From NCBI GenBank assembly GCA_002551355.1, contig NTHE01000022.1:1-64000 (forward strand): 64,000 nucleotides of DNA. Reading direction: 5' to 3'. A model generated the notes under the pieces. It saw only the letters and a program-made list of their open reading frames with translations, had not been told where the DNA came from and did not search any database. Shown piece by piece: positions 10,955 through 13,751 of the stretch; position 1 is the first letter of the stretch; each line of letters opens with the position of its first letter. The DNA is from Streptomyces sp. man185 (GTDB lineage Bacteria > Actinomycetota > Actinomycetes > Streptomycetales > Streptomycetaceae). The position numbers were made by a program, and so were the translations under genes.

Positions 10955-12409
10955 ATGCCGCCCATGCGAATGGGCAGAGCACTCATAGCAGTTGTCGTCG
11001 CGTCCGTGCTCGCGGCGGGGGCCCTCGCTCCCGCCGCCTCGGCGCACCCCGCGTCCACCCGGGCCGCCGACCCGTCGACGTACGAGCGTTCCATCCCGCC
11101 CCTGACCGACGACCGGGGCCGCACCCTCACCCTGCGCGGCTGGAACGTCGAGGACAAGGCGAACCGCGGCGAGGAAGCCCTCAGCGCCATCACCGAACGG
11201 CACTTCCGCGATCTGCGCGCGAACGGCTTCAACTTCGCCCGCCTGCTGGTCTTCTGGGACGATCTGGAGCCCACGCGCGGCCGGTACAGCGAGCGCTACC
11301 TCCGGCGCATCGAACGCATCCTGGACTGGGCGCGCGAACACCGCGTCCATGTCCTCATCGACGCCCACCAGGACGTCTTCGGGCCCGCGTTCGGGCACCG
11401 GGGCATCCCGGAATGGGCCACCAGGACCGATGGGCTCCCGTTCACCCCCAACCCCGACGACTGGTTCTCCGAGTATTTCCAGCCCGCCGTCCAGCGGGCC
11501 TTCACCCACCTCTACGAGGACCCCGACCTCCAGCGCGCCCAGGCCGCCATGTGGCAGGTCCTCGCCGCACGCTTCGGGCGCCACCCGGCCGTCATCGGCT
11601 ACGACCTGATCAACGAGCCGATGGGGGAGCTGCGCGAGGGCGAGGACCTGCCGACCGCCGCCCGCCGGATCGAGGCCCAGCACCTCACCCCGATGTACAA
11701 CCGGCTCGCCCGCGCCGTCCGCGCCAAGGACCGCGACACCTGGCTCTTCGTCGAGCCCACCCCCATCGTCGGCGAGGGGGTGCCCACGGGGCTCGGCCGC
11801 ATCGAGGACCGGCGGACCGTGTACGCCCCGCACTTCTACAACACCGCCATGGAGGCGGGCGCGGACTACGACCCGGAGGCGGGCTGGATCGAGGCGTACG
11901 AGGCCGCCGTCACCGCCTATCCGGCCCGGTACCGGATGCCGGTCGTGGTCGGCGAGTGGGGGCCGCTGAACAACGCCCTCCCCAACATGGGCCGCTTCTA
12001 CCGCGACGCCGTCGACTCGCTGAACCGCTACGGCTCCGGCTGGGCGGGGTACGTCTGGTGCTACGGCGGCGGCTACTGCGCCGTCGACGAGCGGGGCCGG
12101 TTCCGTACGAACAAGGAGCTGACGGCGACCCCGTACGCCCCGGCCGTCGCGGGCGCCGTCCGCTCCGACACGTACGACGCGGACACCCGCACCTACCGCC
12201 TCGCCTACCGGGCGTCCGCCCGTCCCGGGGTGACCGAGCTGTCCCTGCCGCCCTCCTCCCGGGGCTGGCGGGTCACCGTCACCGGCCCGGCGCGCGTCCT
12301 CGGCAAGCCGTCGCGCGGGGGGCGGCCCGTCGTGCTTTCGTGGTACGGGGCCGAGGTGGTGGTGACCGTGCGGGAAGCTGGCCCGCATGGACGAACTGAC
12401 CACCCCTGA
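10955..12409 (+). CDS. Secreted GH5 glycoside hydrolase (cellulase / endoglycoceramidase type)
   Basis: This 484-residue protein has a Sec signal peptide (basic start, then ALIAVVVASVLAAGALAPAASA). A (beta/alpha)8 GH5 catalytic domain follows: LTLRGWNVEDKAN, GFNFARLLVFWDDLEPTRG, LIDAHQDVF, the acid/base glutamate in YDLINEPMG (about residue 220) and the nucleophile in VVVGEWGP (about 333). The HQD and NEP context resembles endoglycoceramidases, so glycolipids or beta-glucosides are possible substrates. A C-terminal beta domain covers the last 90 residues. Starts at 10955, 10967 or 10973 are possible. The 3' end overlaps the GNAT gene by 23 bp. Confidence 0.88.
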   Translation: MPPMRMGRALIAVVVASVLAAGALAPAASAHPASTRAADPSTYERSIPPLTDDRGRTLTLRGWNVEDKANRGEEALSAITERHFRDLRANGFNFARLLVFWDDLEPTRGRYSERYLRRIERILDWAREHRVHVLIDAHQDVFGPAFGHRGIPEWATRTDGLPFTPNPDDWFSEYFQPAVQRAFTHLYEDPDLQRAQAAMWQVLAARFGRHPAVIGYDLINEPMGELREGEDLPTAARRIEAQHLTPMYNRLARAVRAKDRDTWLFVEPTPIVGEGVPTGLGRIEDRRTVYAPHFYNTAMEAGADYDPEAGWIEAYEAAVTAYPARYRMPVVVGEWGPLNNALPNMGRFYRDAVDSLNRYGSGWAGYVWCYGGGYCAVDERGRFRTNKELTATPYAPAVAGAVRSDTYDADTRTYRLAYRASARPGVTELSLPPSSRGWRVTVTGPARVLGKPSRGGRPVVLSWYGAEVVVTVREAGPHGRTDHP

Positions 12410-12926
12410 GGGGTTCCTGCTGCGCCCCTGGCTGCCCGACGACGCCCCGGCGGTGCTCCGCGCCTTCGCCCCGGCCGAGATGGACCGCCAGACGGACCGG
12501 CCCGTGGACGACCGGTCCGGGGCGCTGGCCTGGATCGCGGACCGTGCGCGGGAGCGGGGGGCGCGCACCGGCTACTCCTGGGCCGTCGTGGGGGAGGAGG
12601 GGGAGGCGCTCGGCTGCGTGGCCCTCAACGTCGTCAACCGGACCCATGACAGCGGCTGGGTCTCCTACTGGACCACGCCGGAGGCGCGCGGCCGGGGCGT
12701 CGCTCCGGCCGGCGTGCGGGCGCTCGCGCGCTGGGCCTTCGACGAGCTCGGGCTGTACCGGCTGGAGCTGGGCCACCGCACCGACAACCGCGCCTCCTGC
12801 CGGGTTGCGACCCGGTCGGGATTCACGCCCGAGGGCATCGAGCGGGCCAAGCTGCGGTACGGCGACATCCGGTACGACGTCGAGCGGCACGCGCGCCTGG
12901 CCGACGATGATGTCAACTTTGGTTGA
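12387..12926 (+). CDS. GNAT-family N-acetyltransferase (RimJ/RimL-like)
   Basis: The 179-residue protein carries the GNAT fold: the early FLLRPWLPDDAPAVLRAF strand-helix, a central GWVSYWTTPEARGRGVAPAG (acetyl-CoA pyrophosphate loop, R/QxxGxG/A type), then LGLYRLELGHRTDNRASCRVA and GFTPEGIER. This is the signature of RimJ/RimL-type acetyltransferases, which modify N-terminal amines of proteins or small molecules. The ATG lies inside the end of the GH5 gene and suggests co-transcription. Its stop lies within the palindromic regulatory region of the next gene. The real acceptor is unknown. Confidence 0.88.
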   Translation: MDELTTPEGFLLRPWLPDDAPAVLRAFAPAEMDRQTDRPVDDRSGALAWIADRARERGARTGYSWAVVGEEGEALGCVALNVVNRTHDSGWVSYWTTPEARGRGVAPAGVRALARWAFDELGLYRLELGHRTDNRASCRVATRSGFTPEGIERAKLRYGDIRYDVERHARLADDDVNFG

Positions 12927-12958
12927 CGAGAAGGTGATGTCAATGTAAGTTGACATCA
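12911..12958 (+). promoter_or_regulatory. Leaderless promoter embedded in two palindromic operators
   Basis: Site 1 is TGTCAA-N6-TTGACG (12911-12928). Site 2 is TGATGTCAA-N6-TTGACATCA (12935-12958), with perfect 9-bp arms. Centres are 27 bp apart. A -35 hexamer TTGACG (12923-12928) is followed after exactly 17 bp by the -10-like TAAGTT (12946-12951). That places the transcription start about 7 bases on, at the A of ATG 12958. No ribosome-binding site is present, so the mRNA is probably leaderless. Both promoter hexamers lie inside the palindromes, as expected for autorepression by the encoded HTH protein. Confidence 0.75.
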
Positions 12959-13167
12959 TGACCGAAGCAACGGATCTGGCCGCACGCGCCGGTGACCGCG
13001 ACCCGCGCGTCGGGCTGCGGGCGGTGGCCGCGCTGCGGCGGCTGCTGGAGCAGCTCGAAGCCGTCCAAGTCAGAAGCGCCCGTGTTCAGGGCTGGTCGTG
13101 GCAGGAGATCGCCGCCGAGCTGGGCGTCAGCCGGCAGGCCGTGCACAAGAAGTACGGGAGGCGTTGA
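12958..13167 (+). CDS. Small helix-turn-helix protein, putative autorepressor
   Basis: This 69-residue protein consists of an N-terminal helical segment (GLRAVAALRRLLEQLEAVQV) and a C-terminal helix-turn-helix (WSWQEIAAELGVSRQAVHKKYG). The ATG coincides with the edge of a perfect palindrome and the predicted transcription start, so translation is probably leaderless. The stop overlaps the next start as TGATG, coupling it to the Clp_N protein. It probably binds the two TGTCAA-N6-TTGACA-type sites as a dimer, with the long helix as dimer interface. That role is an inference from size and placement. Confidence 0.85.
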   Translation: MTEATDLAARAGDRDPRVGLRAVAALRRLLEQLEAVQVRSARVQGWSWQEIAAELGVSRQAVHKKYGRR

Positions 13168-13751
13168 TGTTCGAGCGATTCACCCGAGGGGCCCGCGCCA
13201 CCGTGAAGGGCGCGGTGGCCCACGCCGAGCGGGCCGGGGCCGACGCGGTCACCGAGGAACACCTGCTGCTCGCGCTGCTGGAACAGGAGGGCGGCCGGGC
13301 CTCGTTCGCCGTCGCCGCCCTCGGCCTCCACGACCGCCGCGCCTCCCTGGACGCCGCCTTCGCCGAGGCCCGCCGCCGCGGCGGCCTGACCAAGGCCGAC
13401 ACCGACGCGCTGGCCGGTATCGGGATCGACATCGGCGCGATCGTGTCCCGGGTCGAAGGGGCCCACGGCGAGGGAGCCCTGGACCGCGGCCGCGGCAACC
13501 GCCGCTGGTGGTGGTCCGGGCACCGCCCCTTCACCTCGGGTGCGAAGACGGTCCTGGAGAACTCGCTACGGGTCGCCCTGGGGCGCGGCGACCGGTCCAT
13601 CGGCGAGGAGCACCTGCTCCTGGCCCTCACGGCGAAGCCGGGGGTCGTCGCCGACGTTCTCGCCGAGCACGGAGCGACCTGTGCGGCCGTGCAGCGCGCG
13701 CTGTACGGCCGTGACGCCGACGGGGGCCAGGGGCACGCCCAGGCCGGGTGA
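13167..13751 (+). CDS. Clp N-terminal (Clp_N) domain-only protein
   Basis: The 194-residue protein contains two Clp_N-type repeats. The first is about residues 1-70 (ATVKGAVAHAERAGADAVTEEHLLLALLEQEGG). The second is about 118-185 (AKTVLENSLRVALGRGDRSIGEEHLLLALTAKPG). No AAA+ ATPase or Walker motifs are present. In ClpA/ClpC this domain binds adaptors and substrates, so a stand-alone version might be an adaptor, decoy or substrate receptor. It is translationally coupled to the small HTH gene. GC content and codon use look like the surroundings. No function is established from sequence. Confidence 0.88.
   Translation: MFERFTRGARATVKGAVAHAERAGADAVTEEHLLLALLEQEGGRASFAVAALGLHDRRASLDAAFAEARRRGGLTKADTDALAGIGIDIGAIVSRVEGAHGEGALDRGRGNRRWWWSGHRPFTSGAKTVLENSLRVALGRGDRSIGEEHLLLALTAKPGVVADVLAEHGATCAAVQRALYGRDADGGQGHAQAG

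Follow-up and report, generated by a model that had tools for sequence, protein, structure and literature searches.

The window analysed here (the whole 64,000-nt stretch) contains a split paralogue of the ClpC2 kind, in which two palindrome-wired genes encode a small HTH protein and a separate Clp_N protein. The locus is conserved and probably functional. The most likely function, to which we give a probability of roughly 0.6 on the model of ClpC2, is that of an autoregulated sensor and sponge for ligands of the ClpC N-terminal domain (NTD). The HTH protein would dimerise, bind both tandem palindromes and shut its own leaderless promoter; such autorepression of the operon is likely. The Clp_N gene, with its own ribosome-binding site, would make a mimic of the ClpC NTD that keeps most of the cyclic-peptide pocket. 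When a ligand (a natural-product peptide, an unfolded client or a tagged substrate) occupied Clp_N, contact with the HTH repressor would be lost; the promoter would then open, more of the mimic would be made, and the ligand would be titrated away from ClpC. The anatomy of the locus is well supported: the sequence shows the tandem operators and their overlap with the promoter, the missing Shine-Dalgarno motif of the HTH gene, the autoregulatory layout, the homology of both halves to ClpC2 and the conserved pocket. For the window pair we infer DNA binding by the HTH protein, its contact with Clp_N, the ligand, induction and sponge action; ligand sensing and sponge action are extrapolated from ClpC2 and from conservation of the pocket.

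Mycobacterial ClpC2 (Rv2667) consists of an N-terminal domain fused to Clp_N (Taylor et al. 2023, PMC10030653). It represses its own promoter through tandem CGTCAAC-n5-GTTGACG sites that lie over the -35 and -10, it binds this operator in vitro, and its transcript is probably leaderless (PMC10030653). Cyclomarin induces ClpC2, which binds and sequesters cyclomarin A and protects ClpC1; heat also induces it about twofold, and a holdase role has been proposed (PMC10030653). The preliminary description of the window presented the system as one whose function is not known to be described. In general form this fails, because the fused ClpC2 of Taylor et al. is a kindred system that represses itself, probably has a leaderless transcript and sequesters its ligand (PMC10030653). 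The fused system is thus already known. What is new is the split version with its N6 operator; no earlier description of this HTH/Clp_N arrangement or of its motif was found in the literature searched.

Two palindromes precede the pair, all features being on the forward strand. Operator 1, TGTCAACTTTGGTTGACG (12911..12928), has the -35 hexamer TTGACG (12923-12928) as its right half, and its centre is not conserved. Operator 2, TGTCAATGTAAGTTGACA (12938..12955), has perfect 9-bp arms (12935-12943 and 12950-12958) and holds the -10 hexamer TAAGTT (12946-12951). The predicted core promoter (12923..12957) consists of TTGACG, a 17-bp spacer, TAAGTT and 6 nt to the ATG. Transcription is predicted to start on the A of the ATG at 12958, which would make the transcript leaderless. 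The palindromes, their embedded promoter elements and the 9-bp arms are all present where the preliminary description had placed them. The pattern TGTCAA-N6-TTGAC(A/G) has two sites in the window against a chance expectation of 0.02. In the 8.07-Mb genome GTCAAYN4RTTGAC is confined to this locus, with exactly two occurrences, and TGTCAAN6TTGACA matches operator 2 alone. Chance palindromes are ruled out by the low expectation and by the uniqueness of both sites in the genome. The upstream GNAT acetyltransferase ORF (12387-12926) extends into operator 1, and its stop codon lies within the palindrome; of the 30 orthologous loci, only five have a detectable upstream GNAT gene.

Conservation within the genus was assessed on 30 fetched Streptomyces loci. 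Every one retains the two palindromes together with the 69-aa HTH gene and the Clp_N gene, and of 61 genomes sampled from the genus, 43 contain homologues of the Clp_N protein (E <= 1e-24). Operator 1 sits 27-29 bp upstream of operator 2, and the HTH ATG follows operator 2 by 2-3 nt (30/30 for each), a geometry suited to autoregulation. Column counts show GTCAA/TTGAC kept at both sites in all 30 loci. The centre T and A are kept (29/30 each) at site 2 only, where they give a -10 of TANRTT, while site 1 gives TTGACA/G; the operator can therefore be separated from the promoter. The promoter spacer varies from 17 to 19 bp, and the distance from the end of the -10 to the HTH ATG is 6 nt in 28 loci and 7 nt in the other two. 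None of the 30 has a Shine-Dalgarno-like motif within the 18 nt that precede the HTH ATG. As judged from this and from the 2-3 nt spacing, the predicted leaderless start lies directly past operator 2, as it probably does in ClpC2. The proposed lack of a ribosome-binding site is thus borne out for the HTH gene, but the Clp_N gene has its own Shine-Dalgarno sequence, GGGAGG (13156..13161), which lies inside the HTH reading frame and is conserved in 30/30 orthologues. A leaderless first gene and a Shine-Dalgarno-driven second gene would favour an excess of Clp_N over repressor. A search for conserved sites before orthologous HTH/Clp_N pairs had been named in advance as a check. It found them in all 30 Streptomyces loci and in dozens of other genera. 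Phylogenetic footprinting and the experimentally characterised relative ClpC2 lend good support to the idea first put forward, an autoregulated leaderless switch that makes a Clp substrate-receptor decoy.

The first gene (P0001, 12958..13167) encodes, as originally described, a 69-residue protein with Pfam HTH matches. It is predicted to be an autorepressor and shares homology with RelI and with the N-terminal/HTH domain of ClpC2. In a profile search against PDB its best match is RelI (9SDC, E 1.3e-9), and the N-domain of Rv2667 (8ADA) is matched at E 6.6e-4. Aligned by hhalign with the ClpC2 of the same genome, it scores a probability of 95%. The window thus has a ClpC2-type N-terminal dimerisation/HTH domain as a separate gene. 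The dimer salt bridge of ClpC2, D46-R57 (residues from PMC10030653), aligns with E/D31-R42 of the split HTH, a pair kept in 93 of 107 split and 14 of 14 fused HTHs. The recognition helix differs: H63 is present in all 107 split HTHs, versus Q in all 14 fused ones. The AlphaFold model has a pLDDT of 89.5. A fold search with it returned generic HTH and Fis-like matches only (best VIA Z 5.5; Foldseek E > 1), and neither 8ADA nor 9SDC is among the matches listed, so the link to ClpC2 and RelI depends on sequence profiles. Elsewhere in the genome, locus L212 (G000:C35) encodes an HTH protein of the same family that has a proline-rich extension and no Clp_N.

The second gene (P0002, 13167..13751) is coupled to the first through TGATG. 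The two are separate genes in all 30 orthologues, with the 1-nt TGATG overlap in 28. Its 194-aa product matches Pfam Clp_N in two stretches. The coupling and the two Clp_N repeats without an ATPase agree with the preliminary description, and ClpC2 likewise has the double repeat without AAA+ domains. The AlphaFold model (pLDDT 89.4) matches the complexes of the ClpC1 NTD with ecumicin, lassomycin, rufomycin and cyclomarin, as well as the C-terminal domain of ClpC2 (ClpC2-CTD). Residues F96, F172 and E181 of the ClpC2 cyclomarin pocket correspond to F2, F122 and E131 in the window protein. Among 90 split actinobacterial Clp_N proteins, 88 retain F2 and 80 retain F80 (ClpC numbering), the pocket phenylalanines that contact cyclomarin, and the ClpC-pocket residues E31/H32 and E106/H107 are mostly kept. 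E89 (ClpC numbering), the equivalent of which contacts cyclomarin in ClpC2, is kept in only 68 of the 90; the ligand may thus differ from that of ClpC2. The split proteins also share a conserved insert between the repeats (motif GIDxxxVxxxVE...G.GAL), which is absent from fused ClpC2 and from ClpC. As a bare suggestion, this insert may dock the HTH protein.

The genome that contains the window also encodes a fused ClpC2 of 245 aa (G000:C93:176638, in locus L213, G000:C93:176400-177700). Two 7-bp-centred palindromes, with one mismatch each, end 2 nt before its ATG. Operator geometry separates the two forms cleanly: split genes follow GTCAA-N6-TTGAC and fused genes follow GTCAA-N7-TTGAC, and 30 of 32 tandem N7 loci start a fused ClpC2 ORF. 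Seven further sampled Streptomyces carry both operator forms, and both protein forms coexist in Mycobacteriaceae-like genomes. In a phylogenetic tree the fused proteins form one clade (100/99), and the split Clp_N proteins, that of the window included, fall outside it. The split proteins group on one side with support of only 57/26, too little for the tree to place the ClpC NTDs and fused ClpC2 relative to them or to favour either a split-first or a fused-first origin. Since split and fused forms are two old clades, the difference in operator and helix counts as one evolutionary contrast rather than many independent ones.

The tandem N6 operator extends well beyond Streptomyces. A loose tandem pattern matches 129 of the 394 genomes scanned in the class, and its reversed control matches none. 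However, a minority of these matches represent a different GTCAAG-N4-CTTGAC motif (L048, L049, L053), and a stricter Y/R pattern was therefore used for counting. This other motif is likewise a tandem inverted repeat, and in L048 it recurs every 42 bp. An unbiased scan of public genomes with the stricter pattern gave 80 loci among the matches listed. The second site is followed, usually after 2-4 nt, by the start of an HTH ORF in 72 of these 80 (69 identified by HMM, three truncated where the locus ends), and Clp_N follows the HTH in 58 of the 69 HMM-identified loci. The complete module, with a divergent Clp_N, is also present in Devosia, in Ensifer, in another Alphaproteobacterium and in a record labelled Cycloclasticus (L093, L102, L115, L143), and Pfam Clp_N was found in three of these four non-actinobacterial proteins. 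Its presence in Devosia, Ensifer and the Cycloclasticus-labelled record suggests that operators and genes were transferred together. In Microbacteriaceae (Microbacterium, Cryobacterium, Okibacterium and relatives) an ABC exporter gene replaces Clp_N after the operator and HTH gene (L091, L101, L113, L135, L147 and L163; also L035, L036, L040, L041 and L045). The exporter was identified by Pfam ABC_membrane for L113 and by sequence likeness for the other loci. Arthrobacter, Pseudarthrobacter and their relatives have the operator and HTH gene alone, with nothing recognisable downstream. The remaining eight of the 80 listed tandem sites have no adjacent HTH ORF. Tandem palindromes of the same pattern without an HTH ORF precede hydrolase-like genes in L120 and L125, and similar membrane-protein genes in L110 and L164.

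These arrangements bear on which part of the system reads the operator. In the view of Taylor et al., arginines R185 and R189 in the Clp_N domain of ClpC2 make the contact with the operator (PMC10030653). R185 has an equivalent in ClpC itself (R93). At the R189 position all 14 fused proteins have R and the split ones mostly A or G, although the operator is kept. The N6 operator also tracks the HTH gene where an ABC exporter, or nothing, stands in for Clp_N. The lack of R189 in most split proteins and the operator-HTH loci without adjacent Clp_N favour the HTH as reader. To go by these comparisons, it is probably the HTH, rather than the Clp_N domain proposed for ClpC2, that reads the operator; a supporting role for Clp_N is compatible with this. 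The split arrangement is thus a natural domain dissection, which argues for the HTH against the assignment made in the ClpC2 study. However, loci with an exporter or nothing after the HTH gene have no neighbouring Clp_N partner, and this counts against the sensor and sponge model.

A possible but rather doubtful alternative is that the locus is an autoregulated proteostasis buffer, in which Clp_N would be an anti-adaptor, a holdase or a competitor for ClpC substrates, and unfolded or tagged proteins would be the inducers instead of antibiotics. The twofold heat induction and proposed holdase role of ClpC2 (PMC10030653) are in keeping with this, as is the retention, in most cases, of the ClpC-pocket residues E31/H32 and E106/H107. 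The same PadR-type regulator gene adjoins the pair in 22 of 30 loci, which looks more like a housekeeping locus than a mobile resistance island. A toxic small molecule, however, would better fit the finding that Microbacteriaceae have an ABC exporter in place of Clp_N. A toxin-antitoxin-like module, with the HTH as antitoxin and Clp_N toxic by jamming ClpC, is highly improbable: an overlapping gene pair behind tandem promoter palindromes is typical of such modules and the HTH is a relative of the antitoxin RelI (PMC13284704), but the second gene encodes Clp_N instead of a RelE/BrnT-type toxin, neither protein has a PADLOC match, the genes are widespread in the genus and the related ClpC2 protects and does not kill. 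PADLOC, used to look for defence-system membership, likewise gave no grounds for it. It is equally hard to credit that the palindromes serve some other regulator, with the HTH gene as a mere passenger; some listed tandem sites lacking an adjacent HTH ORF do precede hydrolase-like or membrane-protein genes, but in many actinobacterial genera and in Alphaproteobacteria alike the tandem operator accompanies the HTH gene whatever lies downstream, the genome has such a site nowhere else, and ClpC2 binds a related N7 operator in vitro (PMC10030653).

A conserved mimic of the ClpC NTD that represses its own synthesis would give Streptomyces a candidate intrinsic defence against ClpC-targeting compounds, and would be a ready biosensor for finding new ones. 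Cyclomarin, rufomycin, ecumicin and lassomycin all act on ClpC, and actinomycetes make several of them. Tentatively, and at somewhat short of even odds, a second widespread ClpC2-type defence branch can be envisaged. Its small HTH repressor would read the 6-bp-centred tandem operator and would be insulated from the 7-bp ClpC2 operator of the same cell by one bp and by a recognition helix that differs (H63, against Q). Its effectors, a Clp_N sponge or an ABC exporter, would be interchangeable; in Streptomyces it would protect ClpC from peptides made by the genus, and the HTH would read the operator in both branches. The split and fused operators suggest a simple one-base-pair rule that separates two paralogous circuits within the same cell.

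Among known systems, the RelI antitoxin of RelS-RelI (Rv2664) is likewise a short HTH protein and belongs to the family of the window HTH, but its partner is a RelE-type RNase, whereas the window HTH is paired with Clp_N; the RelI authors report no evidence for DNA binding (PMC13284704). The NTD of ClpC1 shares the Clp_N fold and ligand pocket with the window protein, which even begins MFERFT. Unlike ClpC1, the window protein has no ATPase domains, stands alone at 194 aa and carries an insert between its repeats. ClpC3, named by Hoi et al. (2023), is a small mycobacterial Clp protein that, as cited in PMC10864484, competes with ClpC1 and has cyclomarin and ecumicin as ligands; its small size and this competition resemble what is proposed for the window Clp_N. 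The closest relative is ClpC2. ClpC2 is one fused polypeptide with a 7-bp operator centre, whereas the window has two genes with a TGATG overlap and a 6-bp centre, an own Shine-Dalgarno sequence for Clp_N and the insert between repeats; the split form does not conserve R189, the arginine proposed to touch DNA. Common to both are a dimerising HTH-type domain and a Clp_N double repeat without ATPase, the dimer salt bridge and pocket phenylalanines, and tandem palindromes over the -35 and -10 with a putative leaderless start right after the second site.
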